Positions 31,206 through 60,094 of a stretch of 64,000 bases of DNA are shown one piece after another; the first letter of the stretch is position 1, and the number at the start of each line of letters is the position of its first letter. The stretch is taken from assembly GCF_021044565.1 (NCBI RefSeq), contig NZ_CP087997.1, positions 806,001-870,000 of the forward strand. Reading direction: 5' to 3'. A program made the position numbers and the translations under genes. The notes beneath the pieces were generated by a model. It did not search any database, was not told the origin of the DNA, and worked only from the letters and a program-made list of their open reading frames with translations. Origin of the DNA: Subtercola endophyticus (lineage in GTDB: Bacteria; Actinomycetota; Actinomycetes; Actinomycetales; Microbacteriaceae).

Positions 31206-31271
31206 GAACGCGACAGTTTCGGACGAGATGAGCCGCCGGGGCGCTCGCTCTCGTCCGAAACTGTCGCTCTG
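31206..31271. repeat. 66-bp palindromic element, copy A
   Basis: Arms of 23 bp around a 20-bp centre; the inner 19 bp of each arm (31210-31228 and 31249-31267, core GTTTCGGACGAGA / TCTCGTCCGAAAC) are perfectly complementary. Centre TGAGCCGCCGGGGCGCTCGC. It lies between the converging smpB and dehydrogenase genes. Three further copies occur at 38102, 54555 and 60029. Confidence 0.9.
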
Positions 31272-31284
31272 GCGGCTGGGCCCG

Positions 31285-32214
31285 TCAGAAGCGCAGGGGC
31301 ACACCCGTCATGGTCTCGGCCATGTTCCAGAGTTCGGTGGCGGTGTGGATGTCGCGGGCGCGGTTGCGGGCGCGCACGATGGTGGGGCTGCCTTTCAGCT
31401 GCCGCCATCCGCTCGGACCCCAGTACTCTCCGCCGCGCGCTACGGGGTCGGCGGCCGCCCGCACGGTGGGCAGGGCGCCAGCGTCTTTGCCCTGAGCAAA
31501 AGCGCCGAGCGCAGTTCGCGTGAATGTGTTCGAGGGCCTGCCATTCGTGATGCCCGGCCGGGCGGCGCTGAGGCCGTCGAGTGAGAATCCGGGATGCGCG
31601 ACGAGACTCTCGGTCGATAGTTTGGCTGCGCGCAGGCGTCGATCGAGCTCGAACGCGATCAGCATGACACCGAGCTTTGAACGGCTATACGCGCGAAAAC
31701 TGTCGTAATTCTGATCTCCCATGACGTCAGTCAGATCCATCTCGTTGAACTGATGTGCGATGCTGCCAAGCGACACGATGCGTGACTTCTCGGTCGAGAG
31801 CAATGTCGGCATCAGTCGCGCTGTGAGCGCGAAGTGACCGAGCACGTTCGTGCCGAACATGAGCTCGAATCCGTCGGAAGTGAAGCCCCGATTCTTGGCT
31901 CCCAGAACACCCGCGTTATTGACGAGTACGTCGATGGGCTCGGCGGCGAGTTCGGCAGACGCCGTTTCAACGCACGCCAGGTCGGCCAGGTCGAGCTTGA
32001 CCCAGCTCACATCGGCCCGGGGCGCGCGAGAGAGTATCGATGCAATGGCCCTGGTGGCTTTCTCCTCACTGCGCGCGGCGACCACCACGGTTGCACCTCG
32101 ACGGGCAAGAAACTCCGCAGTCCAGTAGCCGAGCCCCGCGTTCGCACCTGTGATCACGACGCGCTTACCGGCGAGAGAGGGCAGACGGGCGGGAGTCCAT
32201 GCGGGAGTCGTCAT
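31285..32214 (-). CDS. Short-chain dehydrogenase/reductase
   Basis: A 309-residue NAD(P)-dependent oxidoreductase of the SDR superfamily, closest in layout to retinol dehydrogenase-like members. The Rossmann motif is VVITGANAGLGYWTA (glycine-rich loop TGxxxGxG), followed by NNAGVLGAK, the catalytic Ser in SLGSIAH and the YxxxK pair in AYSRSKLG. The substrate is unknown. TAATCT lies 6 nt before the ATG on the minus strand (leaderless). It interrupts the conserved smpB-ssrA pair. Confidence 0.9.
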   Translation of the reverse strand: MTTPAWTPARLPSLAGKRVVITGANAGLGYWTAEFLARRGATVVVAARSEEKATRAIASILSRAPRADVSWVKLDLADLACVETASAELAAEPIDVLVNNAGVLGAKNRGFTSDGFELMFGTNVLGHFALTARLMPTLLSTEKSRIVSLGSIAHQFNEMDLTDVMGDQNYDSFRAYSRSKLGVMLIAFELDRRLRAAKLSTESLVAHPGFSLDGLSAARPGITNGRPSNTFTRTALGAFAQGKDAGALPTVRAAADPVARGGEYWGPSGWRQLKGSPTIVRARNRARDIHTATELWNMAETMTGVPLRF

Positions 32215-32220
32215 GCAGCG

Positions 32221-32226
32221 AGATTA
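32221..32226 (-). promoter_or_regulatory. -10 element (TAATCT) of the dehydrogenase gene
   Basis: TAATCT on the minus strand ends 6 nt before the ATG at 32214. A plus-strand TATACT at 32232-32237 is a candidate -10 for ssrA about 95 nt further on. Confidence 0.45.
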
Positions 32227-32333
32227 GTGCATATACTGGAGGGCTGCCTGATAAGGCGGTTCGCATCTAGACAACTCAACAGCGCGTGACAGTGGCCCGC
32301 AGCCAGCCTCGATCAGGGGCGGTCGCATTGCAG

Positions 32334-32736
32334 GGGGATGATCGGTTTCGACATTGCCTGAGTGAGTGTGAGAAGCGGGCCGAGGACGCACGGTTATCTC
32401 GTAAACGATCCGTGCAAACAATAAGTGCCAATTCAAACAGCACTGTTCCGGCTCAGGCCAAGGCTTCTTTCGCTCTCGCAGCGTAAGACCCTTCTGACCT
32501 AGCCACAAGGAACCGTCAGTCCGGGAATGCCCTCTACCCGGTGCCTGGCGTTATCTAGAGGGATTGCTTGTGCGTTGAGCCTCAGGGCGCACAGGGACCC
32601 GCACTGAGACTGGGCTCGTCGATCTAGCTGCCAGTGGCAAAGATCGGAGCCGAGTAGAACGCTTGCACTGGCTACACCCGTAGAAGGCACACGACCACAG
32701 CAGTGGACGGGGGTTCAATTCCCCCCATCTCCACCA
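32334..32736 (+). ncRNA. ssrA: Transfer-messenger RNA (tmRNA)
   Basis: A 403-nt tmRNA. The ends form the tRNA-like acceptor stem, GGGGATG with CATCTCC, followed by encoded ACCA, and the T-arm GGTTCAATTCC is present. The 5' part carries the typical GATCGGTTTCGAC. The tag reading frame runs 32427-32486 from the resume codon GCC and encodes ANSNSTVPAQAKASFALAA followed by TAA; the ending ALAA is the conserved degron. A tag of 19 residues is longer than most. The gene works with smpB upstream. Confidence 0.95.
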
Positions 32737-32748
32737 CCAGAGGCCACG

Positions 32749-33132
32749 TCACGCGTTGTTGAGCTCGTTGTTTTCGGTGCCGTCACCCGGCTCGTCGCCT
32801 TCGCCCGGCTCGAGGTTAGTGGGCGCGGTGTGAGCCGGCGAGGGGTGAGCTGGCGCGGTGTGAGCCGGCGCGCGCCGCACACCAGCGGCTGCGGTTTTCG
32901 CGAACTTTCGGTGCGCAGCTTGCCGCGACGTGCCTAGTACCAGGCTGATGACCTGCCAGGAGTCTCCAGCGGCGTGGGCGGCCGAGACCGCGTCGTCGAG
33001 CGCCTGTTCAGCCGCTTCGAGTGCAGTGAGCGCCTCGCCGATTCGGCGGAGATTGGAGCCGTCGGTCATGCGCGAAGTGACGGGATCGAGCGAATCGAGC
33101 CAGTCCTCGGCTCCGGAGCTTGTTGCATTCAT
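32749..33132 (-). CDS. Small helical protein with HTH-like segment
   Basis: A 127-residue protein. Its centre is helical (LRRIGEALTALEAAEQALDDAVSAAHAAG) and is followed by a segment that looks like a helix-turn-helix (SWQVISLVLGTSRQAAHRKFAK). The C-terminus is Pro/Ala/His-rich with PAHTAPAHPSPAHTAP repeats. The start is the ATG at 33132, with AGGTG about 7 nt upstream; the longer frame is unlikely because it overlaps the preceding toxin-like gene. It begins 10 nt after that gene's stop codon, so the two were probably one operon, and it may be the antitoxin or regulator. Family not recognised. Confidence 0.65.
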   Translation of the reverse strand: MNATSSGAEDWLDSLDPVTSRMTDGSNLRRIGEALTALEAAEQALDDAVSAAHAAGDSWQVISLVLGTSRQAAHRKFAKTAAAGVRRAPAHTAPAHPSPAHTAPTNLEPGEGDEPGDGTENNELNNA

Positions 33133-33303
33133 AGTGGTCACCTCACAGGTAGTGGTAGAACTTCGGCCGAAGAATGTCGGCATGGATGATTCGGGCCGGG
33201 CGATTCGAGGGCACGGCCACTATTTCGAGAAAACGACCTTGCCGGTCGGTTCCGATGATGAAGACCCGTGGTTCGTTGTCATACTCCTGCTCTATGTATC
33301 GAA

Positions 33304-33311
33304 GGATGTTT
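33304..33311. repeat. Target site duplication, left copy
   Basis: GGATGTTT directly before the left end of the IS; the same 8 bp follow the right end at 34730-34737. Confidence 0.88.
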
Positions 33312-34729
33312 GGTCACGTCCCGCGTAGTGGTGGAGTTTCTTGACACCGTGCGGGGATCAATTCATTGATTATGCGGCAGCGAGTTCTGGGATAACAACC
33401 ACCTCCTCGACCTCGTTGAGTGTGGTGTCGAGTTCCTTCATTGAGGCTTCGGAAAAGTAGCGTCGCTCGCCGGCTTCCCATTCGTCGTGCTGCTCGACGA
33501 GGACAGATCCGGCGAGGCGGAGCATCGCGGCGGGGTTCGGGAACACGCCGACGACGTCGGTGCGGCGTTTGATTTCTTTGTTCACCCGTTCCAGCGGGTT
33601 CGTGGACCAGATCTGACGCCAATGCTTCGGCGGGAAGCTCGCGAACGCGAGCAGGTCCGGGCGGGCGTCGTTCAGCATCGTCGCGACTTTCGGGTGGGAG
33701 CGTTCCAGCATTTTCGTGACCTCGTCGAACTGGCCATTCACATGCTCTTTGTCGGGTTGGGCGAAGATCGTGCGAATGATCGAGCCAACCATCTCCTGCG
33801 ATCCTTTCGGGATCACCGCGAGCACGTTGCGCATGAAATGCACCCGGCACCGCTGCCACGACGCACCCTGCACCGTCACGGTGATCGCCTTGATCAGGCC
33901 GGCGTGCGCGTCGGAGATCACGAGCCTCACGCCGTTCAGGCCGCGGGCTTTCAGGCCGCGGAGGAACTCGGTCCAGAATGCCTCGTTTTCGCTGTCACCG
34001 ACGTCGAAACCGAGGACTTCACGGTGCCCGTCAGCGGCGACACCGACCGCGACAACGATCGCCTGTGACACGACCCGATGATTCACGCGTGCTTTGCAAT
34101 ACGTCGCGTCGAGGAACACGTACGGGTACGCCTGCCCGGTCAGGTCACGATCCCGGAACGCAGCAACCTCCTGGTCGAGGTCAGCGCAGATGCGTGACAC
34201 CTCCGACTTCGATATGCCCGTGTCAGCGCCGAGCGCTTTCACGAGGTCATCGACCTTTCGGGTCGAGACGCCGTGCAGGTACGCCTCCATCACGACCGCG
34301 AACAGTGCCTGATCAACTCGGCGGCGTCGTTCCAGCAGCGACGGGAAGAACGTGCCCGCCCGCAGTTTCGGGATCTTCAACTGCAGATCCCCAGCCGTCG
34401 TGGTCAGCAGGCGTTGCCGGACCCCGTTTCGTTGCGTGACCCGATCGGTACTGCGTTCGTAGGGTCCGGCGCCGATGAACGCGGCAGCTTCCGCGTCGAT
34501 CAGTTCCTGGTACAGCGTTTCGGTCGCGACCCTGACCCGGTCGCTGACATCAGTGAGTTTCAGTTGGCCAAGCAGCTCGAGCAAGGCAGAATTATCCAGA
34601 GCCATCGTGCGTGAGTCCATTCCATGAGTAGCTTTAGTCGGTGCTCATCGACCATCGCACGATGGCTCACCACGTCGACAACACGACGCTCAGGCGGTCC
34701 GAAATTCCACCACTCACGGGGACGCAACC
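33312..34729 (-). mobile_element. IS256-family insertion sequence, intact, 1418 bp
   Basis: Both ends begin GGT when read inward and form imperfect inverted repeats of about 30 bp sharing CGTCCC and AGTGGTGGA-TTTC (33312-33341 and 34700-34729). They are flanked by a perfect 8-bp duplication (GGATGTTT), as expected for IS256 elements. A single full-length transposase gene fills the interior, reading in the same direction as the interrupted gene. The perfect duplication and intact transposase point to a recent insertion. Confidence 0.92.
33370..34620 (-). CDS. IS256-family transposase
   Basis: A 416-residue DDE transposase of the IS256/MULE group. Catalytic residues are visible: first Asp in VFLDATYCKARVN (about residue 170), second Asp in RLVISDAHAGL (about 240), and Glu in NPLERVNKEIKRRTDVVG (about 345). 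The N-terminal DNA-binding part includes GPYERSTDRVTQRNGVRQR. Length is typical and no frameshift is seen, so it is probably functional. A later in-frame ATG (MALDNSALL, residue 6) is an alternative start. Confidence 0.95.
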   Translation of the reverse strand: MDSRTMALDNSALLELLGQLKLTDVSDRVRVATETLYQELIDAEAAAFIGAGPYERSTDRVTQRNGVRQRLLTTTAGDLQLKIPKLRAGTFFPSLLERRRRVDQALFAVVMEAYLHGVSTRKVDDLVKALGADTGISKSEVSRICADLDQEVAAFRDRDLTGQAYPYVFLDATYCKARVNHRVVSQAIVVAVGVAADGHREVLGFDVGDSENEAFWTEFLRGLKARGLNGVRLVISDAHAGLIKAITVTVQGASWQRCRVHFMRNVLAVIPKGSQEMVGSIIRTIFAQPDKEHVNGQFDEVTKMLERSHPKVATMLNDARPDLLAFASFPPKHWRQIWSTNPLERVNKEIKRRTDVVGVFPNPAAMLRLAGSVLVEQHDEWEAGERRYFSEASMKELDTTLNEVEEVVVIPELAAA

Positions 34730-34737
34730 GGATGTTT
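34730..34737. repeat. Target site duplication, right copy
   Basis: GGATGTTT directly after the right end of the IS, identical to 33304-33311. Confidence 0.88.
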
Positions 34738-34883
34738 CTCAGCGCGCACTCGATGTCTGCGGGCGCAATGCCGTGTTTTCGTGCACTTGTTGCGATCTCC
34801 ATTATGTCATCATCTTGTTGACACTAGTACATTTACGAGGATTAATCATTGAACTAGACCATTCGCATGAGCGGCACCGACTC

Positions 34884-36038
34884 TCAGCCCACGCGGCCCT
34901 CGCGCCCACGCTCGCGGGCGGTGCGGATGCCCGACCAGACGAGAGCGACGACCACCGCCACAAGGGTGCCGAGCACCGTCTCGAGGCCGCGATCGGTGAT
35001 GAGGGCGGTGGGGTCTGTCGGGTGGGCCATGCTGACCATCACGAGAGCGAGCGGCGTGATGAAGATGAGCGCAACGCCGTAATTGCGCAAGATCATGAGC
35101 TCGGCGGCGATCTGCAAGGCTACGACGAGCAGAATCGCCCAGAGTCCAGCCGGGTGCAACAGCAGCAGGCCCCAGGCGACTACGAGCCCGACGAGGGTGC
35201 CGAGTACACGATGGGCGCCGCGCACCATGGTCTGCGCGAGGTCGAACGCGACCAGCGGAACGACGGCGGCGACCATGGCCCAATACGGATGCCCGATCTG
35301 CAGCAGCGTCGAAAGCGATCCGGCGACGGCGAGCGCCACGCCGAACCGTGCCGCCGACAGCAGCGACTCGCGGGAGCCCAGTACGCTGCGCAGGCGCGTG
35401 ATAGCGGCGCTTCCGGTTGGGGAGGGCGTCGAAGGCGCGGCGATCGAGGCGGAGGGTGCGCGCAGCACAGCATGCGCCTGCCCTACAAGCAGCGCGAACG
35501 CGGCCGAGGCGCCGCTCACTACCACAGCGACGAGAACGTTGACGCCGGCAGGGGAATTCGCTCCCGTGACCGACGGCACCGGGATCGACGCGACGGCACA
35601 CAGGGCGAAGACCGCGAACAGCGGGCCTGGGGGAGTCCATCGCGCGGCCTGCGAGATGAGCGCCACGATCATGGCCCAGACGGCACCGAGCAGCACGGTC
35701 ATCCATTCGCTCGCCGGCGCCGGCGCCGGAGCTACGACCGAACCGAGAGCCACTGAGACGACCATGACCACGGCCGCGACGGTCTGCATGCGAAGCCGGG
35801 CGCCGCGCAGCACGGTGCGCCCGTAAACCGACGTGAACGCCCCGAAGGCGCCGAAGATCGACCACTCGGGGTGACCCAGGGCGTAGAGCACGACAAGGGG
35901 CACCAGTACAGACACTCCCACGCGCAGCGCCGCTCGAGGGGCCGAGGCGTCGCGCCCGATGGTCACCAGCGAACGGGAAAACGAGACGGGCGCGGGCGAG
36001 TGCGGCTGCGAGGTTACACGGGTGTGGATTGCTGACAT
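34884..36038 (-). CDS. FUSC family exporter-like membrane protein
   Basis: A 384-residue membrane protein of the fusaric acid resistance (FUSC/AaeB) type. Two repeats, each with several transmembrane helices, are joined by a cytosolic linker (about residues 195-240). The family signatures appear in the second half, IGHPYWAMVAAVVPL and HRVLGTLVGLVVAW. It probably exports aromatic acids or similar toxic compounds. The ATG at 36038 is favoured over the longer frame (to 36101) because TAAAAT lies 7 nt upstream within the operator shared with marR. Regulation by the divergent MarR protein is strongly suggested by this layout. Confidence 0.88.
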   Translation of the reverse strand: MSAIHTRVTSQPHSPAPVSFSRSLVTIGRDASAPRAALRVGVSVLVPLVVLYALGHPEWSIFGAFGAFTSVYGRTVLRGARLRMQTVAAVVMVVSVALGSVVAPAPAPASEWMTVLLGAVWAMIVALISQAARWTPPGPLFAVFALCAVASIPVPSVTGANSPAGVNVLVAVVVSGASAAFALLVGQAHAVLRAPSASIAAPSTPSPTGSAAITRLRSVLGSRESLLSAARFGVALAVAGSLSTLLQIGHPYWAMVAAVVPLVAFDLAQTMVRGAHRVLGTLVGLVVAWGLLLLHPAGLWAILLVVALQIAAELMILRNYGVALIFITPLALVMVSMAHPTDPTALITDRGLETVLGTLVAVVVALVWSGIRTARERGREGRVG

Positions 36039-36044
36039 CAGAAG

Positions 36045-36062
36045 TATTTTACCAGTAAAGTA
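36045..36062. promoter_or_regulatory. MarR operator overlapping two divergent -10 elements
   Basis: TATTTTAC-CA-GTAAAGTA is an 18-bp inverted repeat (7 of 8 positions symmetric), AT-rich in a GC-rich setting. It contains TAAAGT (36056-36061), 6 nt before the marR ATG, and on the other strand TAAAAT (36051-36046), 7 nt before the FUSC ATG. A regulator bound here would cover both promoters. Confidence 0.75.
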
Positions 36063-36067
36063 TCTGG

Positions 36068-36598
36068 ATGACCACCCGATCAGCTGACCTGAACAGTGCA
36101 TCGACTTCGCATCGAGACGCGATCGACCGATTGCGCGCCCAGTGGGCTGTGACCCGACCCGAACTCGATACCAGCCCCGCCGCCACCATCGGGCGGCTGC
36201 TGCGCGTGGCGAAACACGTCACGTCGCTGAGTGACGCCCGGCTGGCCGAGTTCGGCATCAGCCGCGGCGAGTTCGACGTACTCTCGGCGGTGCGCCGCGC
36301 GCCGGCACCGCCGACTCCGACGGAACTGGCGAAAGACCTGCTTGCCTCGAACGCGTCGATCACCAAGAGGCTGGTTCTGCTCGAGAAGTCGCAGCTCGCC
36401 GTGCGAATACGAAGCGCGTCCGACGGCCGCGTGGTGACGGTATCGCTCACCCCGGCGGGCGTCGCGCTCATCGATCGTGCCCTCCCGGCCCAACTCGGCG
36501 TAGAAGCCGCACTGATCGACGTGCTGGGCGAAAACGAGCGTGACCAGTTCGAGTCGACGCTGCGGCGGCTGTTACGAGAGTGCGAAAACCGCCCGTAA
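36068..36598 (+). CDS. MarR family transcriptional regulator
   Basis: A 176-residue winged-helix regulator. The N-terminal dimerisation helices precede the HTH (GISRGEFDVLSAVRRAPAPPTPTELAKDLLASNASITKRLVLLEKSQL), a wing with the conserved SDGRVVTVSLTPAG (about residues 118-131), and C-terminal helices. It most likely represses itself and the divergent FUSC exporter, released by a phenolic or aromatic ligand; the ligand is unknown. Start supported by a leaderless -10 at 36056. Confidence 0.92.
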   Translation: MTTRSADLNSASTSHRDAIDRLRAQWAVTRPELDTSPAATIGRLLRVAKHVTSLSDARLAEFGISRGEFDVLSAVRRAPAPPTPTELAKDLLASNASITKRLVLLEKSQLAVRIRSASDGRVVTVSLTPAGVALIDRALPAQLGVEAALIDVLGENERDQFESTLRRLLRECENRP

Positions 36599-36620
36599 CC
36601 TGATCGTCTTTTTGCTTCGG

Positions 36621-36626
36621 TACGGT
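36621..36626 (+). promoter_or_regulatory. -10 element (TACGGT), leaderless start
   Basis: TACGGT ends 7 nt before the ATG at 36634. Confidence 0.4.
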
Positions 36627-36633
36627 CGCAGCT

Positions 36634-38103
36634 ATGCCCCAGAACACCCCCGCGGACTCCCGCATGCTGACCATCGTGAACGCCATCATCATTCCGATGG
36701 CTGACGGTTCCGACTGGTTCAGGGGGTGGATGACCGTGGGGAACGATGGCTGCATCACCGGTCTGGGCGAGGGTGAACACCCCGATCATCCGGTCGCCCA
36801 CGCCCACGCCGACGCCGACAGCGGCACCGGCACAGACGCCGACGGTCCGGCCACCCGCATGCGCGCCCGCACCGTGATCGACGCGCACGGCGCCTTCGTC
36901 GCCCCCGGGTTCATCTCGGCGCACAGTCACATCTTCACCTCGGGCATGCGCGGTATGACCCCGGGTGACAACCTCTACGGCTGGGTGGGTACGCAGTCGG
37001 CGTTCATCTCGGGCGCGGGCGAAGACGACATCTACTGGTTCACTTTGCACGGCTGCCTCGACTTCATCGGCAACGGCATCACGAGCGCCTACAACTTCAC
37101 CGATTCGCGGGTCGTCGGCCGCTATGATCCGGTGACCGACCGGCGCGAGATCTACTCGATCCGCGATGAGCGGTACCTGCAACGGCAGGTGGATGCCGCC
37201 CGCGACTCCGGGCTGCGAGTGCTGAACTCGATCCGGCTCGACAGCGAGTTCCAGCCCGTGGAGCAGGCGTTCGAGGTGTTCGCCGATGCCGTGGCCTACG
37301 TCGAGAGCAGTGTGCCGGCCGAGCTCAACCTCGGCACGAGCGTGTTCGGCGCCGTGCAGTGGTCGGAGACAGAGCAGGCGGCGCGCGACGAAGTGCGCGC
37401 GATGGACGCCCACGGCATCGGCAACCAGGCCCACTTTCTCGAGACGAGCGAGGCGCTCGACCAGCAGCGCGAGAAGTTCCGCTGGTACGAAGACGCCGGT
37501 GCCCTGCGTGAGGGCTTCTTGTTCGGCCACTTCGTGCACCCCGACACCGACATGGCCGAGACGGCCGCGCGCTCGGGAAGCGGCATGGTGTGGCAGCCCA
37601 CCTCGAACGGGCGGCTCGGCTCGGGCGTCGCCGACATTCCGCGCTACCGCGACCTCGGAATGCCCATCGGCGTCGGCCTCGACGACCAGTCGTGCACCGA
37701 CATCAGCGACCCGTTCCAGAACATGCGCATCGGTATGTACACCCAGCGCGCGGTGCACCAGGATGCCTCGATTCTGCTGCCGCGCGACATGATCCGCCTG
37801 CACACGCTCGGCTCGGCCGAGGCGCTGGGTGTGGCCGATCGGGTGGGCAGCCTCGAGATGGGCAAGTTCGCGGATTTCGTGGTGGTGAATCCGTCGTCGC
37901 CCGACACCGGCCCCGTGTGGGACGTCTACGCCAGCTACGCGTTCGCTTGCGGGCTGCGAAACCTCGAGCAAGTGTACATCGGGGGAGTACTCGCGGCCGA
38001 GAACGGCCGCCCCGTGCATCCGGCGGCCGCCGAGGCCTCGTCGCAGCTGCACGAACGCGTGCGTTCTGCCGCCGGCCGCACCGGCCTCACCCTCGCCTGG
38101 TGA
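36634..38103 (+). CDS. Amidohydrolase superfamily deaminase/hydrolase
   Basis: A 489-residue metal-dependent hydrolase of the chlorohydrolase/deaminase (TrzN/SsnA-like) branch. Metal and catalytic residues: HxH in GFISAHSHIF, His in NQAHFLETSE, His in FLFGHFVHP and Asp in VGLDDQSCTD. A C-terminal composite domain follows (GSLEMGKFADFVVV). An unusual His/Ala/Asp stretch (HPVAHAHADADSGTGTDADG, about residues 50-69) interrupts the N-terminal sandwich. The substrate, perhaps an amine-bearing ring or guanidine compound, is unknown. Its stop codon overlaps palindromic element copy B. Confidence 0.9.
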   Translation: MPQNTPADSRMLTIVNAIIIPMADGSDWFRGWMTVGNDGCITGLGEGEHPDHPVAHAHADADSGTGTDADGPATRMRARTVIDAHGAFVAPGFISAHSHIFTSGMRGMTPGDNLYGWVGTQSAFISGAGEDDIYWFTLHGCLDFIGNGITSAYNFTDSRVVGRYDPVTDRREIYSIRDERYLQRQVDAARDSGLRVLNSIRLDSEFQPVEQAFEVFADAVAYVESSVPAELNLGTSVFGAVQWSETEQAARDEVRAMDAHGIGNQAHFLETSEALDQQREKFRWYEDAGALREGFLFGHFVHPDTDMAETAARSGSGMVWQPTSNGRLGSGVADIPRYRDLGMPIGVGLDDQSCTDISDPFQNMRIGMYTQRAVHQDASILLPRDMIRLHTLGSAEALGVADRVGSLEMGKFADFVVVNPSSPDTGPVWDVYASYAFACGLRNLEQVYIGGVLAAENGRPVHPAAAEASSQLHERVRSAAGRTGLTLAW

Positions 38104-38167
38104 GAGCGACAGATGCGGACGAGACGAGCCGCCCCGGCCGTCGCTTTCGTCCGCAACACTCGCTCTC
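38102..38167. repeat. 66-bp palindromic element, copy B
   Basis: Arms 38102-38124 and 38145-38167 (outer GAGAGCGA / TCGCTCTC, inner GCGGACGA / TCGTCCGC), centre CGAGCCGCCCCGGCCGTCGC. It begins within the amidohydrolase stop codon and lies between two converging genes. Same length and layout as copies A, C and D. Confidence 0.9.
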
Positions 38168-38177
38168 GCGGGCGTGA

Positions 38178-38855: not shown

Positions 38856-38931
38856 GGAGTCATTCGATCAGTGCAGCGTGAACTCGAGATGAATGCAGAG
38901 CGGCCACTCGTCGCATTCACCGTGGCGTGCC

Positions 38932-38960
38932 TTGACAGCCGTTTCGGCTGCCCGCAGGGT
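38932..38960 (+). promoter_or_regulatory. Promoter of the phosphonate-type operon
   Basis: TTGACA (38932-38937), 17-nt spacer, CAGGGT (38955-38960), then 7 nt to the GTG at 38968. A perfect -35 box with a weak -10 box, in position for a leaderless transcript. Confidence 0.45.
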
Positions 38961-38967
38961 CAAGATC

Positions 38968-40113: not shown

Positions 40114-40247
40114 GCGTCGCCGGGTGTTCACACGGTGAGTGCCTCCCCTTCACCGGCGCGGGTGAGCATCAGGTGATCGGTTCGGTGTCACCACGTCGCC
40201 TGCCCTAGAGCGCACGGCCGGGCGATCATCCAGGAGGACACAGTTCA

Positions 40248-41390: not shown

Positions 41391-41392
41391 TT

Positions 41393-48738: not shown

Positions 48739-48742
48739 ATCC

Positions 48743-51137: not shown

Positions 51138-51175
51138 GCGTTCCGGAGTTTCGCTCGTGCGAAGACAGTCGTCGA

Positions 51176-51205
51176 TTGCCGTTAAAGCAAAAAGAGTTGT
51201 ATTAT
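51176..51205 (+). promoter_or_regulatory. Promoter of the nrtR-nad operon
   Basis: TTGCCG (51176-51181), 18-nt spacer, TATTAT (51200-51205). It predicts a transcript starting near 51212 and a leader of about 37 nt before the nrtR GTG. An NrtR operator is expected around here, but I cannot identify one by sight. Confidence 0.55.
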
Positions 51206-51248
51206 CAGTTCAAGTCAATTGCACCTTTACTCGAATCCGGTATCCACT

Positions 51249-51938: not shown

Positions 51939-51993
51939 GACCACCCGTTTGTATTACCACCCGAGCAACACCCCTGTGCAAGAGGAGCACGAC

Positions 51994-53265
51994 ATGCCAT
52001 CTGTCGATACCACCATTCAGCTGATCCGCCCCGGCGGAAAAGTCACCAGCTGCAGCCCCGCGCTGAAAGATGCGCCGTGGAACTTCGACAAAACCCCGGC
52101 TCCCGAGTACGGACCCGGGTCGTCGATGTACGACGTCGCTCCCGCAGACACGCCGCGACAGGGTGAGATTCCGCTGGAATACCGCCTCGCCAGTAACGAA
52201 GAACTCGACGCCCGCATCATGGCAGCGAAGGCCACCCTCGGCGACCGGCTGGTCATACTCGGCCACTTCTACCAGCGCGACGAGGTCGTGAAGTACGCGG
52301 ACTTCGTGGGCGACTCGTTCCAGCTGGCCAACGCGGCCAAGGCGAAGCCCGAAGCCGAAGCGATCGTGTTCTGCGGCGTGCACTTCATGGCAGAGACCGC
52401 CGACATTCTCGCCGGCCCGCAGCAATCGGTCATTCTGCCGAACCTGGCTGCCGGATGCTCGATGGCCGACATGGCCGACATCGACTCGGTGACGCTCGCC
52501 TGGGAGCAGCTCGAAGAGATCTACGGCACCGAGCCCGATGCCAGTGGTCGAGTGCCGATCATCCCCGTCACGTACATGAACTCCTCGGCTGCGCTGAAGG
52601 GTTTCTGCGGCGAGCACGGCGGCATCGTCTGCACCTCGTCGAACGCGGCCACGGTGCTGAAGTGGGCGTTCGAACGCGGGCAGCGGGTGCTGTTCTTTCC
52701 CGACCAGCACCTCGGCCGCAACACGGCGAAGGCCATGGGCGTGCCGCTCGAGCGCATGCCCATGTGGAACCCGCGCAAGCCGCTCGGCGGAAACGACGTC
52801 GACGGGCTGGTAGATGCCCAAGTGATTCTCTGGCACGGTTTCTGCTCGGTGCACAAGCGCTTCAACGTCGCTCAGATCGAGAAGGCTCGCGCCGAATTTC
52901 CCGGCGTGCGTGTCATCGTGCACCCGGAATGCCCGATGCCCGTCGTCGACGCCGCAGACGAGGCGGGCTCGACCGATTACATCAAGAAGGCCATCGAGGC
53001 GGCGCCGGCCGGATCGACCTTCGCGATCGGCACCGAGATCAACATGGTGCAGCGGCTGCAGGCCGAGCACCCCGAGCACACCATCTTCTGCCTCGACCCG
53101 GTGGTCTGCCCGTGCTCCACGATGTACCGCATTCACCCCGGCTACCTGGCCTGGGTGCTCGAGGCATTCGTGAACGGCGAGGTGCTGAACCAGATCACGG
53201 TGCCTGACGATGTAGCGGTACCGGCCCGTGTGGCCCTGGAGCGGATGCTGGCGGCTCGGCCATGA
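51994..53265 (+). CDS. nadA: Quinolinate synthase
   Basis: Iron-sulfur enzyme condensing iminoaspartate and dihydroxyacetone phosphate to quinolinate. A 423-residue protein of the long actinobacterial type. Motifs include ILGHFYQRDEVVKYADFVGDS, VFCGVHFMAETADIL, HPECP and the cluster cysteines in VFCGVHF, FCGEHGG and VVCPCSTMYRIHP. AGAGGAG lies 6 nt before the ATG, which fixes the start within a longer frame. It overlaps nadB by four bases. Confidence 0.96.
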   Translation: MPSVDTTIQLIRPGGKVTSCSPALKDAPWNFDKTPAPEYGPGSSMYDVAPADTPRQGEIPLEYRLASNEELDARIMAAKATLGDRLVILGHFYQRDEVVKYADFVGDSFQLANAAKAKPEAEAIVFCGVHFMAETADILAGPQQSVILPNLAAGCSMADMADIDSVTLAWEQLEEIYGTEPDASGRVPIIPVTYMNSSAALKGFCGEHGGIVCTSSNAATVLKWAFERGQRVLFFPDQHLGRNTAKAMGVPLERMPMWNPRKPLGGNDVDGLVDAQVILWHGFCSVHKRFNVAQIEKARAEFPGVRVIVHPECPMPVVDAADEAGSTDYIKKAIEAAPAGSTFAIGTEINMVQRLQAEHPEHTIFCLDPVVCPCSTMYRIHPGYLAWVLEAFVNGEVLNQITVPDDVAVPARVALERMLAARP

Positions 53266-54998
53266 CCACGACACCGTTCGCCCGGCCTACGGCAATCGTC
53301 GTGGGCAGCGGAATCGCCGGGCTCGTCGTAGCCCTTCGCGCGACCCGCACGCACGAGGTCACGCTCATCACCAAGGCCGAACTCGGCGAGAGCAACACGC
53401 GCTACGCGCAAGGCGGCATTGCGGCGGCGCTGTTCCCCGATGACAGCGTCGAGTCGCATGTCGCCGACACTCTCGTTGCGGGCGCTGGACTGAACCGGCT
53501 TTCGGCCGTAGAAGTACTGTGTGCCGAGGGTCCGCAGCGCATCCGCGACCTCATCAGCTGGGGCGTCGAGTTCGACCGCGCGGTCGATGCCGCTTCGGGC
53601 GACGACGTCATTGCGGGGCTCGCGCGCGGCCTAGAAGCGGCTCACTCGCACCCGCGCATCATGCACGCCGGCGGTGACGCCACCGGTGCGGCCATCGAGT
53701 CGGCGCTCGTGCGCGCCGTGCGTGCCACCACCTCGACGCTGCTCGAATACACCTTCGTGGCCGATCTGCTGGTCGATAAAAGTGACGAGTCGAGCGCTGA
53801 TGAAGCTAGCGCTGATGAAGCTGGCGCTGCAGGCGCCGCGCGCCGCGTGGTCGGCGTCTCCGTGATCGGCCCCGACGGCGTCGCGCGCGAGCTGCACGCA
53901 GACGCGGTGATCCTCGCCAGCGGGGGAGCCGGCCAGCTCTTCGCGCACACGACCAACCCCGAGGTGACCACCGGCGACGGTGTGGCGGCGGCGTACCGCG
54001 CGGGTGCTCAGCTCGCTGATGTCGAGTTCTACCAGTTCCACCCGACGTCGCTCGCGGTTCCGGGCAACTTCTTGATCTCCGAGGCCGTGCGCGGGGAGGG
54101 CGCTGTGCTGCGCGGCAGCGACGGTCGCCGATTCATGCCGGCCGTGCATCCGGATGCCGAGCTCGCGCCGCGCGACGTCGTCGCCCGCGCGATCGCCGAG
54201 CAGATGCACCGCCAGGGCGGAGCGCCCGTGCTGCTCGACGCCACCGCGCTCGGCGGGGAGTTTCTCGCCCGCCGGTTCCCGAGCATCACCGAGGCGTGCC
54301 GTCGCAACGGGCTCGACTGGGCCGCGGCGCCCATCCCCGTGACGCCCGCAGCGCACTACTGGATGGGCGGGGTCTTGACCGACGACTGGGGCCGCACCTC
54401 GCTGCCGGGCCTGTACGCGGTCGGCGAGGTCGCCTGCACCGGAGTGCACGGCGCCAACCGTCTCGCCTCGAACTCCCTGCTCGAGTCGGTCGTGTTCGCC
54501 TGGCGCTGCGTCGAGGCCCTGCAGCTCGTGCCCGCCGGCGCCCCCTTCGCTGGCGAGGGCGACTTTTCCGGACGAGATGAGCTGTTGCGCGGGTCGCTCT
54601 CGTCCGAAACTCTCGCTCTCGACGCGGAAGCGCAAGCGGGCGCGGGCGCGGGCACGGGGTTCAGCCGGCTCGAGTTGCAGCAGTTGATGTGGGACAACGT
54701 GGGGGTGTACCGCGACGCCGAGACCCTCGAACATGCGCTTTCGACGCTCGAGAGCTGGGCATCGAACGGGGCACAGAGCACTTCGGCCGAGACTGCGCGG
54801 GGCGGCGCTACGCTGCACGACCGCGAGAACGCGAACCTGCTGCTGCTCGGTACGCTCATCACCCGCTCGGCGCTCGCTCGCGAGGAGTCTCGTGGGGCCC
54901 ACTTCCGCTCCGACTTTCCCGAACCGCGCGAAGAGCTCCGGCACCACATCGTCTCGGCTCTCGAGACCTCCGAACGAAAGGTTACGGTCAGCCTGTGA
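53262..54998 (+). CDS. nadB: L-aspartate oxidase
   Basis: FAD enzyme oxidising L-aspartate to iminoaspartate, first step of de novo NAD synthesis. A 578-residue protein with AIVVGSGIAGLVVALRA at the N-terminus, SNTRYAQGGIAAAL, HPTSLAVPGNF, and GLYAVGEVACTGVHGANRLASNSLLES. Two unusual inserts are seen: a Glu/Asp/Ala repeat (SADEASADEAGAAG, about residues 184-197), and 22 residues (432-453, DFSGRDELLRGSLSSETL) encoded by palindromic element copy C in the linker before the C-terminal helical domain. Catalytic regions are unaffected. Overlaps nadA and nadC by four bases each. Confidence 0.95.
   Translation: MTTTPFARPTAIVVGSGIAGLVVALRATRTHEVTLITKAELGESNTRYAQGGIAAALFPDDSVESHVADTLVAGAGLNRLSAVEVLCAEGPQRIRDLISWGVEFDRAVDAASGDDVIAGLARGLEAAHSHPRIMHAGGDATGAAIESALVRAVRATTSTLLEYTFVADLLVDKSDESSADEASADEAGAAGAARRVVGVSVIGPDGVARELHADAVILASGGAGQLFAHTTNPEVTTGDGVAAAYRAGAQLADVEFYQFHPTSLAVPGNFLISEAVRGEGAVLRGSDGRRFMPAVHPDAELAPRDVVARAIAEQMHRQGGAPVLLDATALGGEFLARRFPSITEACRRNGLDWAAAPIPVTPAAHYWMGGVLTDDWGRTSLPGLYAVGEVACTGVHGANRLASNSLLESVVFAWRCVEALQLVPAGAPFAGEGDFSGRDELLRGSLSSETLALDAEAQAGAGAGTGFSRLELQQLMWDNVGVYRDAETLEHALSTLESWASNGAQSTSAETARGGATLHDRENANLLLLGTLITRSALAREESRGAHFRSDFPEPREELRHHIVSALETSERKVTVSL
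54555..54620. repeat. 66-bp palindromic element, copy C, inside nadB
   Basis: Arms 54555-54577 and 54598-54620 (core CCGGACGAGA / TCTCGTCCG, outer GAGGGCGA / TCGCTCTC), centre TGAGCTGTTGCGCGGGTCGC. It starts exactly on a nadB codon boundary and adds 22 codons without a stop. Confidence 0.88.
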
Positions 54999-56038
54999 CC
55001 AGCACCACTCCCGCGCCGGCCGTCTCGGCGCCCGCCACTCCCGCGCCGCCTGCCACTCCCGCGCCGGCCGCCGCGCCACTCGTGAACTCGCGCCCGACCG
55101 TCGACCCGGGCATCCTGACCCCCCTGCAGATCACGCCGATCGTCACGATGGCGCTCAACGAAGACGCACCGTGGGGCGACCTCACGTCGCAGACGCTGAT
55201 TCCGCTCGACGCGACGGCGGATGCCCGGCTGGTCGCCCGCGAACCCGGTGTGTTCAGCGGCGGCGCCGTGTTCGCGGCGGCCTTCGCGCTGCTCGACCCC
55301 ACTGTCGACGTGCGGCTGTTGCTCGCCGACGGATCCCGTTTCGACGCCGGCGCCACCCTGGCCACCGTTTCGGGACCGGCGCGCTCGGTGCTGCAGTCCG
55401 AACGTGTCGCGCTCAACTTCGTGCAGCGGCTCTCGGGCATCGCCACCCTCACCGCCGCCTACGTCGCCGAGACCGAGGGCACCCAGGCGCGCATCGTCGA
55501 CACCCGAAAGACCACCCCCGGCCTGCGTGTTCTCGAGCGCCACGCCGTGCGCTGCGGCGGCGGACACAACCACCGGTTCTCGCTCTCAGACGCCGTGATG
55601 GCCAAAGACAACCACCTCGCGGTTCTGACTCGCGACGGCCGTCGCTCGCTGACGGATGCCCTGCTCGAGGTTCGCGCGAAGCTCTCTCACACGACCCATC
55701 TCGAGGCCGAGGTCGATCGTCTCGACCAGGTCGAACCGGTGCTCGCTGCGGGCGTCGACACCATCATGCTCGACAACTTCAGCCTGCCCGACATGCGCGT
55801 CGGCGTGGCCCAGGTCGCCGGCCGCGCCATCGTCGAGGCCAGTGGATCGGTGAATCTCGGCACCGTGCGATCCATCGCCGAGACCGGGGTCGACGTCATC
55901 TCGGTGGGCGCGCTCACCCACAGCGTGCGGTCGCTCGACCTCGGTCTCGACGTGACGCTCACCGCGGAGGGTGCGGCGCCGGCCGGCAACGCGGACGACG
56001 CCACCTACGGCACCACGGCCGGCCCCGGCACCCCGTGA
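54995..56038 (+). CDS. nadC: Nicotinate-nucleotide pyrophosphorylase (carboxylating)
   Basis: Quinolinate phosphoribosyltransferase giving nicotinate mononucleotide. A 347-residue protein, about 50 longer than usual because of an Ala/Pro/Thr-rich N-terminus (TPAPPATPAPAAAP) and a Gly/Ala-rich end. Core motifs are EDAPWGDLTSQ, NFVQRLSGIATLTAAYV, DTRKTTPGLRVLERHAVRCGGGHNHRFSLSDAVMAKDNH and EASGSVNLGTVRSIAETGVDVISVG. The GTG overlaps the nadB stop as GTGA. Confidence 0.96.
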   Translation: MTSTTPAPAVSAPATPAPPATPAPAAAPLVNSRPTVDPGILTPLQITPIVTMALNEDAPWGDLTSQTLIPLDATADARLVAREPGVFSGGAVFAAAFALLDPTVDVRLLLADGSRFDAGATLATVSGPARSVLQSERVALNFVQRLSGIATLTAAYVAETEGTQARIVDTRKTTPGLRVLERHAVRCGGGHNHRFSLSDAVMAKDNHLAVLTRDGRRSLTDALLEVRAKLSHTTHLEAEVDRLDQVEPVLAAGVDTIMLDNFSLPDMRVGVAQVAGRAIVEASGSVNLGTVRSIAETGVDVISVGALTHSVRSLDLGLDVTLTAEGAAPAGNADDATYGTTAGPGTP

Positions 56039-57177
56039 TCTACCTCGACAGCGCCGCCACCACGGCGGTGCGTCGCGAAGTGCTCGAGGCGATGTGGCCC
56101 TACCTCACCGGCGACTTCGGTAACCCGTCGAGCACACATTCGCTGGGGGAACGGGCCGCTGACGCGTTGGCGGAGGCCCGGGCATCCGTCGCCCGCTCGA
56201 TCGGCGCACGGGCCAGCGAGGTCATCTTCACCTCGGGCGGCACCGAGGCCGACAACCTGGCCATCAAGGGCATCGCGCTGGCGACCCCGCGCGGCCGGCA
56301 CATCGTCACCAGCCCCATCGAGCACGAGGCCGTGCTGGAATCGTGCGACTACCTGCGGCGTCATCACGGGTTCACCGTGTCGTTGGTGGGCGTCGGCTCT
56401 GACGGGCTCGTCGACCCCGACGAATTCGCCGCGCTGCTCACACCCGACACGACGCTCGCCACGATCATGTACGCGAACAACGAGATCGGCACGGTGCAGC
56501 CCATCGCCGAACTCGCCGAGCGGGCTCGGGCGGCGGGCGTGCCGCTGCACTCCGACGCCGTGCAGGCGGCCGGCTGGCTCACCCTGAACGTGGCGGAGCT
56601 CGGCGTGGACGCGCTCACCCTCTCGGGCCACAAACTCGGCGCACCGAAGGGCATCGGAGCCCTCTACGTGCGTGGCCGCGTCGCCCTCGAACCTGTGCTG
56701 CACGGCGGCGGACAAGAACGCGGCGCCCGCTCGGGCACCGAGAACGTCGCCGGCGCCGTGGGCCTGGCGGTGGCGCTGCAGCTGGCCGAGACGACCCGAG
56801 AGGCAGACGCTGCTCGGGTCAGCACCCTGCGCGACGAGTTCATTGCCGGGGTGCTGCAGGGGGTTCCGGATGCCCTGCTCACCGGCCACGCCACCCACCG
56901 CCTGCCGGGGCTGGCCTCGTTCTGTTTCGTCGGCACCAGTGGTGAGGCGGTACTGCTCGAGCTCGAACGTCAGGGCATCGTCTCGTCGAGTGGATCGGCC
57001 TGCGCCGCCGGCAGTGACGAACCCTCGCACGTGCTCGTGGCGGTCGGTTACGAACCCGAAGTGGCTCAGACGGCCGTGCGGTTCACCATGGGCCCGGGTA
57101 TCACCGACGATGAGGTGCGCGAGGCCGCGGGGGCGGTTGTTTCGGCCGTTCGGGCCGTCCAGGGCATCGCGCGCTGA
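56035..57177 (+). CDS. Cysteine desulfurase (NifS/IscS-like)
   Basis: PLP enzyme releasing sulfur from cysteine. A 380-residue protein starting VIYLDSAATTAVRREVLEAM, with TSGGTEADNLAIKG, the PLP lysine in LTLSGHKLGAPKGIGALYV, GGGQERGARSGTENV and the catalytic cysteine in SSSGSACAAGSDEPSHVL. The GTG overlaps nadC (GTGA). Position at the end of the nad operon suggests a dedicated role in building or repairing the NadA iron-sulfur cluster, as for nifS-like genes next to nad genes elsewhere. Confidence 0.93.
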   Translation: MIYLDSAATTAVRREVLEAMWPYLTGDFGNPSSTHSLGERAADALAEARASVARSIGARASEVIFTSGGTEADNLAIKGIALATPRGRHIVTSPIEHEAVLESCDYLRRHHGFTVSLVGVGSDGLVDPDEFAALLTPDTTLATIMYANNEIGTVQPIAELAERARAAGVPLHSDAVQAAGWLTLNVAELGVDALTLSGHKLGAPKGIGALYVRGRVALEPVLHGGGQERGARSGTENVAGAVGLAVALQLAETTREADAARVSTLRDEFIAGVLQGVPDALLTGHATHRLPGLASFCFVGTSGEAVLLELERQGIVSSSGSACAAGSDEPSHVLVAVGYEPEVAQTAVRFTMGPGITDDEVREAAGAVVSAVRAVQGIAR

Positions 57178-57335
57178 CCGGCCACCGGCGGCCCAGGCCG
57201 CAGGTGAGAAAGCGCGCTCAGGTCTCAATACCCCCTTCGACCGCCTGGGCGCAAGGCCCCCCTCATTCTGGTGCCAGCTACTAACGTGGGGGTCGCGGTT
57301 ACCGCCGCACTACATCTCGGGAGGGATACAACACC

Positions 57336-57497
57336 ATGAATATTCTCGTAGCGATCATCGCGATCATCGCGATCGTTCTGCTCATCACAGGCGGGATATC
57401 TTCGTCACTCAGCTTCTTGATCTGGGTCGGAGTTGTGCTGCTTGTCATCGCCCTCATCGTTTTCTTGCTGCGCTTCATCACGGGTCGCCGCGTCTAG
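57336..57497 (+). CDS. Small hydrophobic membrane protein, 53 residues
   Basis: A 53-residue protein, MNILVAIIAIIAIVLLITGG then a turn (ISSSLS) and a second helix (WVGVVLLVIALIVFLLRF), ending TGRRV. The ATG has GGGAGGGA about 9 nt upstream, and a strong terminator lies 21 bp after the stop, so this is very probably a real gene. No family recognised with certainty; hydrophobic miniproteins of this form are common in Microbacteriaceae and some are stress-induced. Confidence 0.7.
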   Translation: MNILVAIIAIIAIVLLITGGISSSLSFLIWVGVVLLVIALIVFLLRFITGRRV

Positions 57498-57517
57498 CGC
57501 TGCACCCCGCGAGCACA

Positions 57518-57558
57518 GGGCCTCACCGACGAACGGATCGTCGGCGAGGCCCTTTTTT
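57518..57558 (+). terminator. Intrinsic terminator
   Basis: GGGCCTC-A-CCGACG, a 7-nt loop, CGTCGG-C-GAGGCCC, then six T: a 13-pair stem with one mismatch and a clear T-tract after the small hydrophobic protein gene. Confidence 0.9.
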
Positions 57559-57612
57559 CTGCTTCTCGGGAAAAGGGGCGCGGCGAACGGGGGCGCAGGG
57601 CGGCGCCGGGCG

Positions 57613-58155
57613 TCAGCGGGGGCGGAAGGTCGCCGGCACCCCGATGGCGAGGGAGTTCGGCGGAACATCCACGAGCACCACGGCATTCGCGCCGACAGCG
57701 CAGCCGTCGCCGATGTGGATGGGCCCGAGCAGCTTCGCCCCCGCCCCGAGCAGCACGTTGTTGCCGACGTGCGGGTGACGCTGGCCACCCTTCGGAGCAG
57801 TGCCGCCGAGGGTGACACCGTGGTAGATGAGCACGTCGTCGCCGACCGTCGCCGTCTCGCCGATGACCACACCCATTCCGTGGTCGATGAAGACCCGCCG
57901 GCCGAGTACCGCGCCGGGGTGGATCTCGACGCCGGTCAGAAAGCGGGCGAACTGCGACACGAGGCGCGCCGGCAGCCGAAGCCCGTCGCGCTGCCACAGG
58001 GCGTGCGTCAGGCGGTGCAGCCAGATGGCGTGCAGGCCGGAATACCCGAAGAGAATCTCGACCTTCGACCGCGCCGCGGGGTCGCGACGTTGGGCAGTGG
58101 CCAGGTCTTCACGCAGGCGTGCGAAAAAGCCCGTGTTCCCACGTGCGCTGGGCAC
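57613..58155 (-). CDS. cysE: Serine O-acetyltransferase
   Basis: First step of cysteine synthesis, making O-acetylserine. A 180-residue hexapeptide-repeat protein of the short CysE type: [36 protein letters not shown], then the left-handed beta-helix with [30 protein letters not shown] and [17 protein letters not shown]. The GTG at 58155 lies 14 nt after the cysK stop; the much longer open frame upstream is a shadow of cysK and is not used. It forms an operon with cysK. Confidence 0.93.
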
Positions 58156-58169
58156 GGCGGCGGGGCCGC

Positions 58170-59105
58170 TCAGCCGCGGATGTCGTCGTACAGCACCGAC
58201 GAGACATACCGCTCGCCGAAGTCGCAGACGATGGCGACGATGGTCTTGCCGGCGTTTTCGGGGCGCTTTGCCAACTCGAGGGCCGCCCAGAAGATGGCTC
58301 CGGTGGAGATGCCCGCCAGAATGCCCTCTTTCGCTGCGAGCTCTCGCGAGACGCGAATGGAGTCGGCGAGGCTCACATCGATGATCTCGTCGTACACCTC
58401 GCGGTCGAGAATCTCGGGCACGAAGTTGGCGCCGATTCCCGCGATCTTGTGCGGCCCGGGGGCTCCGCCGTTCAGAATCGGCGAGTCGATGGGCTCGACG
58501 CCCACGATCTGGATGCCCGGCTTCTGCTCGCGCAGGTAGTGCCCGGTACCGGTGATCGTTCCGCCCGTGCCGATGCCCGCCACGAAGATGTCGACGGCGC
58601 CGTCGGTGTCGCCCCAGATCTCGGGGCCGGTGGTGGCGTAGTGGATGGCCGGGTTCGCCTCGTTCTCGAACTGGTGCGCCAGAATCGCGCCCTCGGTCTC
58701 GGCCGCAATGCGGTTCGCGGTCTCGACCGCGCCCTTCATGCCGTCGGCTCCCGGCGTCAGAACCAGTTCGGCTCCGTAGGCGCGCAGCACGACGCGGCGT
58801 TCCATGCTCATGGTCTCGGGCATGGTGAGAATCACTTTGTAGCCGCGGGCCGCGCCCACCATGGCGAGGGCGATGCCGGTGTTCCCGCTTGTGCCCTCGA
58901 CGATGGTGCCGCCGGGCTTCAGCGCACCCGATTTCTCGGCTGCGTCGATGATCGCGACGCCGATGCGGTCTTTCACGCTGTTGGCGGGGTTGTAGAACTC
59001 GAGCTTCGCGAGAAGAGTGGTGTCGATTCCCTCGGCGAGCCGGTTGATACGAACGAGCGGGGTGTGGCCGACGAGATCGGTGATGTTGTCGTGAATCTGT
59101 GACAT
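58170..59105 (-). CDS. cysK: Cysteine synthase A
   Basis: PLP-dependent O-acetylserine sulfhydrylase, 311 residues. PLP lysine in [12 protein letters not shown] (about residue 45), phosphate loop [28 protein letters not shown], and the C-terminal DFGERYVSS. The ATG at 59105 has GGAG 10 nt upstream; an in-frame ATG three codons earlier is a weaker candidate. A TAGGCT -10 box about 50 nt upstream overlaps the hisN stop codon. Confidence 0.96.
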
Positions 59106-59155
59106 GGGTTGCATGCTCCATCTGTGAACGTGTGGCCGCCATCGGCCCACGCATA

Positions 59156-59161
59156 AGCCTA
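59156..59161 (-). promoter_or_regulatory. -10 element (TAGGCT) of cysK
   Basis: TAGGCT on the minus strand, its TAG being the stop codon of hisN. It predicts a leader of about 40-45 nt for cysK-cysE. Confidence 0.4.
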
Positions 59162-59992
59162 GCTTTCGAGTAACTCCACAAACGCCTCTTGCAAAAGCCC
59201 GTTCGTCGCCAGCGCGTCGCCGGCCCAGAGCGGATCGCCGCCGCCGAGGCTCGTGAAGGCGCCTCCGGCCTCTCTCACGATAGGAATGAGAGCCGCCACG
59301 TCGTACGCCTTCAGGTCGAATTCGCCCACCGCGTCGACGAGGCCCTCGGCGAGCAGCATGTACGCCCACATCTCTCCGTACGCCCGCGTGCGCCACGTCG
59401 CGCGGTTGAGCCGGGTGAGGGCGTCGAGGTGGCCGGCTTCGTCCCAGCCCTGAAAGGAGTTGTAGCTGAACGAGGCACCCGCCACGTCGGCGACCTTCGA
59501 GACGGCCAGGCGCTGCGGCTGCGGGCCGGCGTACGCGGTGGCGTGCACGGGGTCGGCGTGCGAGCCGGTGCGGTCGATCATCCACGCCCCGTCACCCGTG
59601 GATGCCCACCAGCGCTTTTTCAGCGCCGGAGAGCTGGCGACGCCCACCACCGGCACCCCGTCGACCACGAGGGCGATCAGAGTTCCCCAGATGGGTACAC
59701 CGCGTAAGAAGTTCTCGGTGCCGTCGATGGGGTCGATGATCCACTGACGGTGCGCGTGCGCGTCTTCGCCTTCGCCGCCGTACTCTTCGCCGAGAATGGA
59801 GTCGCCCGGGCATGCGGCCTCGAGCCTCGCGCGGATGGCGCGCTCGACGGCCTTGTCGGCGTCGGTCACGGGAGTTCGGTCGGGCTTCGTCTCGATCACG
59901 AGATCGAGGGCCTGAAACCGCCCCAGCGACACCTCATCGGCCGCGTCGGCCAGGTCGAGGGCGAGCTGTAAATCGTCAGCGTATTCGGTCAC
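59159..59992 (-). CDS. hisN: Inositol monophosphatase family protein, probable histidinol-phosphatase HisN
   Basis: A 277-residue Mg2+-dependent phosphatase. Family motifs: [47 protein letters not shown] (metal-binding Asp pair) and [17 protein letters not shown]. The layout aroA-rsgA-hisN is typical of actinobacteria, where this member is the histidinol-phosphatase; inositol-1-phosphatase activity is the alternative. GTG start at 59992 with TACGCT 6 nt upstream (leaderless), so it has its own promoter although rsgA precedes it. Confidence 0.88.
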
Positions 59993-59998
59993 GCCTCC

Positions 59999-60004
59999 AG
60001 CGTA
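59999..60004 (-). promoter_or_regulatory. -10 element (TACGCT) of hisN
   Basis: TACGCT on the minus strand ends 6 nt before the GTG at 59992. Confidence 0.45.
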
Positions 60005-60028
60005 CCGAGCCGAGCGGCCACCTCCGGC

Positions 60029-60094
60029 GAGAGCGACACCTGCGGACGAGAGCGACCGCCCCGGCGGCTCATCTCGACCGGAAACATCGCTCTC
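60029..60094. repeat. 66-bp palindromic element, copy D
   Basis: Arms 60029-60051 and 60072-60094 (outer GAGAGCGA / TCGCTCTC, inner GGACGAGA / TCTCGACC), centre GCGACCGCCCCGGCGGCTCA, which is the reverse complement of the centre of copies A-C. It lies between rsgA and hisN, upstream of the hisN promoter. Confidence 0.88.

Follow-up and report, generated by a model that had tools for sequence, protein, structure and literature searches.

This study concerns a palindromic element that occurs four times in a 64,000-nucleotide stretch of Subtercola endophyticus DNA (the window, C1:806001-870000 of the one contig of 4,318,731 bases that was searched as the bacterium's own genome, G000). The four copies belong to a large dispersed family, which we read as mobile palindromes akin to the repetitive extragenic palindromes (REPs), with an enzyme that would be an AbiEi-Vsr nuclease rather than a REP-associated tyrosine transposase (RAYT). 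We put the probability of this reading at about 0.74; mobilisation, binding, cutting and copying are steps that we infer. The reading is built on a family of fixed architecture, on nuclease genes bracketed by its members, on solo families specific to single genomes, on empty sites and on a predicted protein fold. A preliminary description had suggested either a mobile palindrome resembling REPs or miniature inverted-repeat transposable elements (MITEs), or a structural element of RNA or DNA, and this proposal is supported by at least 73 sites in the genome together with empty orthologous loci in relatives. The partner gene, the 19-bp period of motifs within the palindrome and the parallel, sequence-unrelated palindrome-gene pairs described here extend that view.

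The size of the family was estimated by several searches of the own genome. A covariance model built from 43 copies gave at least 145 matches, which fall on at least 73 distinct sites and in every listed case cover model positions 1-70; as 150 of 9,109 first-look candidates were scored, this site count is a floor. BLAST returned at least 72 matches (40 of 81 candidates scored), and a 38-nt pattern with up to three mismatches found 46, against none for the reversed control pattern. An exact pattern scan of named genomes gave one stretch, in Subtercola lobariae. A single arm used as query matched 78 and 80 times on the two strands, compared with 2 and 2 in the control, and 98 of the 100 listed arm places sit within known 70-bp units (the exceptions being 808706 and 3154526); the arms are therefore hardly found outside the unit. 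There is accordingly no support in this genome for a longer transposon ending in these arms. The same result bears on the idea that the elements are MITEs left behind by a conventional transposon, of the DDE or Y1 type, that has since been lost, which would account for their inverted-repeat form and their dispersal. The Y1 transposase (PF01797) was absent from 15 of 15 genomes, with 5 of 14 control genomes positive, DDE transposases not having been searched for, and we regard such an origin as scarcely credible; on the Y1 result we also reject a RAYT partner. As a separate observation, three palindromes of the family lie inside 0.7 kb at L116 (G000:C1:3394006, 3394330 and 3394557), in a GC-rich array of longer repeats.

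Outside the window, some 56 kb beyond its end, two inverted copies of the family bracket a gene for a 315-aa protein (G000:C1:926255-927199), the whole forming a unit of 1.17 kb. This protein is predicted to join an AbiEi antitoxin fold to a nuclease domain resembling Vsr and I-Bth0305I. When its predicted structure was compared with solved ones, the nuclease domain lay closest to I-Bth0305I, and structures absent from the VIA-align list were not treated as excluded. Alignment A3, searched by sequence against solved structures, gave two matches only, at E values of 0.23 and 0.26, and ten members of the protein family had no Pfam or NCBIfam match above cut-off; relatives are named in their sources as hypothetical, AbiEi-family or DUF559 proteins. 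Of 15 chosen Microbacteriaceae genomes, 12 have a homologue, as do 79 of the 246 genomes sampled across the phylum. A check for carriage on plasmids or phages gave four plasmid records, all distant, and no phage record, so that no empty-site pair could be drawn from there.

Bracketing by palindromes is common in this homologue family, with many exceptions. When the two flanks of one gene were compared, 36 of 58 loci matched at 40 bits or more, as against 31 of 3,306 mismatched pairs; a few of the same-locus matches (for example L167, L168 and L191) are or include low-complexity sequence. A palindrome score of at least 18 was reached by 47 of 116 flank windows, by 0 of 58 gene interiors and by 1 of 58 distant windows, and the count was 0 of 38 for control flanks taken from related genomes around smpB and the gene next to it. 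At that score, the 58 loci divide into 15 with palindromes on both flanks of the gene, 17 with a palindrome on a single flank and 26 with none. Their sequences are wholly different from gene to gene (TGTTGCC, GCGGGG, GTTGAGCC, GGCGCACC, GCGCGCC and others), and in Microbacteriaceae the plan is shared: with the best palindrome per locus at a score of at least 16, and a direct repeat of at least six of seven letters required within one half, a repeat at lag 19 was found in 15 of 17 Microbacteriaceae loci, where shuffles gave an expectation of 0.27. Letter identity in these loci was 0.57 at lag 19 and 0.20-0.35 across the remaining lags of the 8-28 range. Measured between their outer edges in four cases, the bracketed units span 1.17-1.34 kb, with a gene of about 0.9 kb. 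In genus g45 (L090, L136 and L138; genomes G263 and G221) a further short palindrome around GAAATGTC / GACATTTC was seen on one side of the element.

A second line of evidence is that solo copies carry the bracket type of their own genome. The prediction that a bracket palindrome would also occur alone in the genome of its gene was set three times and held three times, and solo copies elsewhere were absent or rare, except in one sister species carrying the same gene (solo-site numbers are counts from listings, with up to 40 candidates scored per genome). The palindrome of G140 occupies 15 sites in that genome, including the two brackets, with two weak sites in G239, a genome with a TGTTGCC palindrome at its own gene, and none in ten others searched. 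The own genome holds a second, sequence-unrelated family, whose palindromes bracket another nuclease gene (4282820-4283716, in the unit G000:C1:4282719-4283896) and occupy 17 sites including the brackets, 15 of them scattered; the same palindrome has 19 sites in G545, where two bracket a homologue of 82% identity, one or two sites in G203, G007 and G541, and none in the other seven genomes. The palindrome of G089 was found there at 13 sites of at least 49 bp and four partial ones, including the brackets, and not at all in 13 other genomes. At G089:C1:1056127-1056994 two inverted solo palindromes surround 738 bp; this stretch was considered as mobile cargo and rejected, its open reading frame looking like an ordinary host gene, which we take to be OsmC-like, although no family search was made.

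The locus of the 315-aa gene in two relatives adds to this picture. G543 has a protein 72% identical with the same GCGAC/TGAGC bracket type, whereas G545, the closer relative by DNA, has a protein only 59% identical with another bracket type. Bracket type follows protein. In the G545 flanks, three stretches of 328-975 bp are 88-95% identical and other stretches 75-76%, and as these flanks are close where protein and bracket type differ, gene and brackets appear to have been replaced together at this locus.

In the window's family the element consists of the 66-bp core and two bases on each side, 70 bp in all and free of gaps, on the plan SCGAGA-GCGAC-nnTTn-CGGNCGAGA-5mer-n10-5mer'-TCTCGNCCG-nAAnn-GTCGC-TCTCGS. 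A motif of about 9 bp, GAGAGCGAC, occupies columns 3-11 and 22-30, and its inverted form columns 41-49 and 60-68, which places two in each arm with starts 19 bp apart, mirrored around the 10-bp centre. An asymmetric centre, TGAGC...GTCGC, had been described as part of the common design; it holds for the commonest subfamily, in which the inner left GCGAC is replaced by TGAGC, and fails for other subfamilies, which are symmetrical (GCGAC..GTCGC, GATGC..GCATC). The 74 copies diverge from the consensus at a mean of 12.8 of 70 positions. The columns of CGG.CGAG and TCTCG.CCG are kept at 89-100%, and columns 12-16 drift except for the T at 15. There are no indels in the copy set, the searches favouring full-length copies, and deletions do occur, as in the G545 remnant of window copy D. 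In a check for the unpaired end tag of REPs (GTAG or CGTC), made on the sequence outside the arms, no base reached 60% within 15 bp on either side of the 74 copies.

This pattern of constraint seems to fit four binding motifs kept at set distances better than it fits a hairpin per se. Covariation between pairs is small, with 85.5% of cells paired compared with 84.3% in shuffles, of which 6 of 500 reach the observed value; as a sign of hairpin RNA it is a small effect only. It is here that a host role has to be considered, in which the copies would be bidirectional terminators, or hairpins in RNA, maintained by the host at the ends of genes and multiplied by ordinary duplication. Such structures would be consistent with the strong self-complementarity, with pairing slightly above that of shuffles, and with placement at 3' ends. 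Judged with a home-made gene caller, 35 of the 74 sites lie between convergent genes, 32 between co-directional ones and none between divergent ones, with six inside a predicted open reading frame and one unassigned, and the 17 loci examined in the other families (counting one neighbouring pair as two loci, and one bracket) were 13 convergent, 4 co-directional and 0 divergent. However, the 15 bp on either side of the 74 copies hold no T-rich column of the kind a U-run would give, covariation is small while the arm sequence is tightly held, no Rfam match falls on the elements, and neither the gene brackets nor the 19-bp period is explained. We consider this account very unlikely.

Placement also bears on the possibility that the palindromes are operators: an AbiEi-like protein would regulate itself by binding the flanks of its own gene, and the copies elsewhere in the genome would form a regulon or decoys. 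AbiEi antitoxins are described as binding 23-bp inverted repeats in their own promoters (PMC7319586), and in many loci the upstream palindrome is close to the gene start. The scattered copies nevertheless avoid promoters, with 0 of 74 between divergent genes when 11 of the 47 neighbouring gene pairs of the window are divergent. Moreover, both sides of the gene carry palindromes in 15 of 58 loci, and the nuclease domain is left without a role, making the operator account distinctly improbable.

In the window itself, the four copies reported by the preliminary description were recovered in the same places, in gap-free alignment and with copy D on the minus strand, and a scan with the 70-nt majority sequence found these four only at 55% identity or more. 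Their neighbours, named by Pfam, are as follows.

Copy A, 31204..31273 (66-bp core 31206-31271), plus strand, in the convergent gap between smpB (+) and an SDR gene (-).
Copy B, 38100..38169 (core 38102-38167), plus strand, in the convergent gap flanked by genes for an amidohydrolase (+) and a HAD hydrolase (-).
Copy C, 54553..54622 (core 54555-54620), plus strand, inside the reading frame 53262-54998, that of an L-aspartate-oxidase-like gene.
Copy D, 60027..60096 (core 60029-60094), minus strand, in the gap flanked by genes for an inositol phosphatase and an RsgA-like GTPase, both on the minus strand.

The full complementarity claimed for the inner arms of copy A, 19 of 19, is seen directly in the sequence. 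The start of copy B falls within a TGA stop, and copy C is translated as part of its host protein, in the stretch separating the FAD-binding and C-terminal domains; the host gene is inferred to be L-aspartate-oxidase-like from its domains and its place before the QRPTase gene. In the Rfam scan of the window only the tmRNA (32334-32736) and one tRNA, tRNA-Leu (23592-23674), reached the gathering score, and neither overlaps an element.

Comparison with orthologous loci, which the preliminary description had proposed as a check, revealed sites that lack the element. At copy B, which offers the cleanest empty site, 73 bp separate the matching anchors here and 4 bp in G545, which reads TGGTGAG-GGG and has no palindrome. 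The corresponding distances are 103 bp as against 23 bp in G543 for copy A and 103 bp as against 11 bp in G543 for copy D, both empty in G543, and G545 keeps only a right-half remnant of D. A further copy in the own genome, at 879112, spans 132 bp compared with 53 in G543 and is common to G545. At the site of copy C, G545 has an element of another type (GAGAACC x4) in the identical place, as if elements had been exchanged there or the site were a hotspot. On the strength of these empty sites, the remnant and the other-type element, the elements are gained and lost, and perhaps replaced. Opposite copy A, about 850 bp of other DNA lie between smpB and the SDR gene in G545 (G545:C36:14511-15361).

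These loci also bear on a homing model, compatible with the mobile-palindrome reading, in which the palindromes are targets and the gene alone moves, invading and duplicating solo palindromes. The likeness of the nuclease domain to I-Bth0305I favours it, as do the brackets of G140, which are near-identical and in direct orientation (98.5% over 68 bp), and the G545 gene locus, with its diverged protein and other bracket type amid largely conserved flanks. Against it, the solo copy B stands where G545 has no palindrome, and scattered copies have the bracket type of their own genome. As a full account, movement of the gene alone seems to us unlikely.

Taken together, we propose that copies A-D are solo copies of a miniature mobile palindrome and that the element would be a compound binding site in which the GAGAGCGAC motif is read four times. 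In this model, the AbiEi part of two (or four) protomers would grip the arms by recognising the motif, and the nuclease domain would cut the element or its target, in one or two strands, after which the palindrome, alone or with the gene, could be copied during repair into new positions, for the most part downstream of genes. That copies persist chiefly at the ends of genes would then come from the loss of promoter insertions, possibly with a terminator-like benefit in addition. AbiEi proteins are reported to bind 23-bp inverted repeats (PMC7319586) and I-Bth0305I to dimerise on nearly 60 bp (PMC3943268); two 23-bp arms in 66 bp would thus fit a dimer, or a tetramer reading four motifs.

Several observations weigh against the proposal of nuclease-driven mobile palindromes. 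Movement and activity are presumed, and a role for the host, for instance in termination, may also lie behind the conservation. The structural match to AbiEi has a high root-mean-square deviation, 6.3 over 171 residues. The family-1 type, that of the window, is narrow: under strict filters, matches to the model (R1 matches) occur in 18 of 299 Microbacteriaceae genomes, representing 10 of 85 genera, and G153 has R1 matches and no homologue of the protein at E <= 1e-6 in its draft assembly. Beyond the 26 of 58 homologue loci without a palindrome on either side, a third homologue in the own genome, L151 (G000:C1:95971-96852), has no bracket palindromes recognised by the scans and no similarity between its upstream and downstream flanks. 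In the phylum sample the lag-19 repeat is weak, being present in 3 of 21 loci where 0.33 were expected, so that the deeper relatives are mostly without it. Finally, the empty-site approach that had been suggested for fixing the ends of the element succeeded in finding empty loci and did not fix the exact ends or a target duplication; among 630 settings tried for duplications the highest z was 3.5, a value that we do not count as evidence.

We consider it moderately probable that the system represents a new class of mobile DNA in Actinomycetota, in which AbiEi-Vsr fusion nucleases each spread their own family of 66-70-bp four-motif palindromes through the chromosome of the host and switch palindrome specificity while diverging. 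The actinobacteria would thereby have palindromes paired with a definite partner that can be tested and that belongs to a different enzyme class, and the many sequence-unrelated palindrome-nuclease pairs on one 19-bp plan provide a ready set for studying specificity change in a DNA-binding fold. Should the nuclease indeed copy the palindromes, the element would move with neither a known transposase nor a known recombinase, although the way of life, a REP with a partner gene, is already known. Among the papers listed in literature searches, judged by title and the start of the abstract, none described palindromes tied to an AbiEi-Vsr gene.

The closest parallel is the REPtron (REP and RAYT, GTAG family), in which dispersed extragenic palindromes at convergent and co-directional gene gaps are accompanied by a gene bracketed by the same palindromes (PMC3733652); short dispersed palindromes, placement at gene ends and a gene between the same palindromes are common to both. 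Unlike REPs, which measure 20-40 bp, the element here has 66-70 bp and a motif read four times with a 19-bp period, and its presumed enzyme is an AbiEi-Vsr protein in place of an IS200/IS605-type tyrosine transposase (PF01797). Where REPs have a known partner, it is a RAYT tyrosine transposase; a CGTC group, described from five phyla with Actinobacteria not among them, is apparently without a dedicated transposase or known enzyme (PMC3733652); the string 'actinobacter' does not occur in that paper. The present family resembles these CGTC-tagged REPs as palindromic repeats without a known RAYT partner, and analogous partners would be possible for them if our reading is true. With the free-standing EDxHD / Vsr homing endonucleases such as I-Bth0305I it shares the predicted Vsr-like catalytic fold, and it differs from them in its AbiEi DNA-binding fold, its brackets of whole palindromes and its dozens of solo copies. 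The predicted AbiEi fold likewise recalls the AbiE type IV toxin-antitoxin systems, although the protein here has an extra nuclease domain and the units of 1.17-1.34 kb, whose wider neighbourhoods were not searched, leave little room for a separate gene of the nucleotidyltransferase toxin AbiEii.

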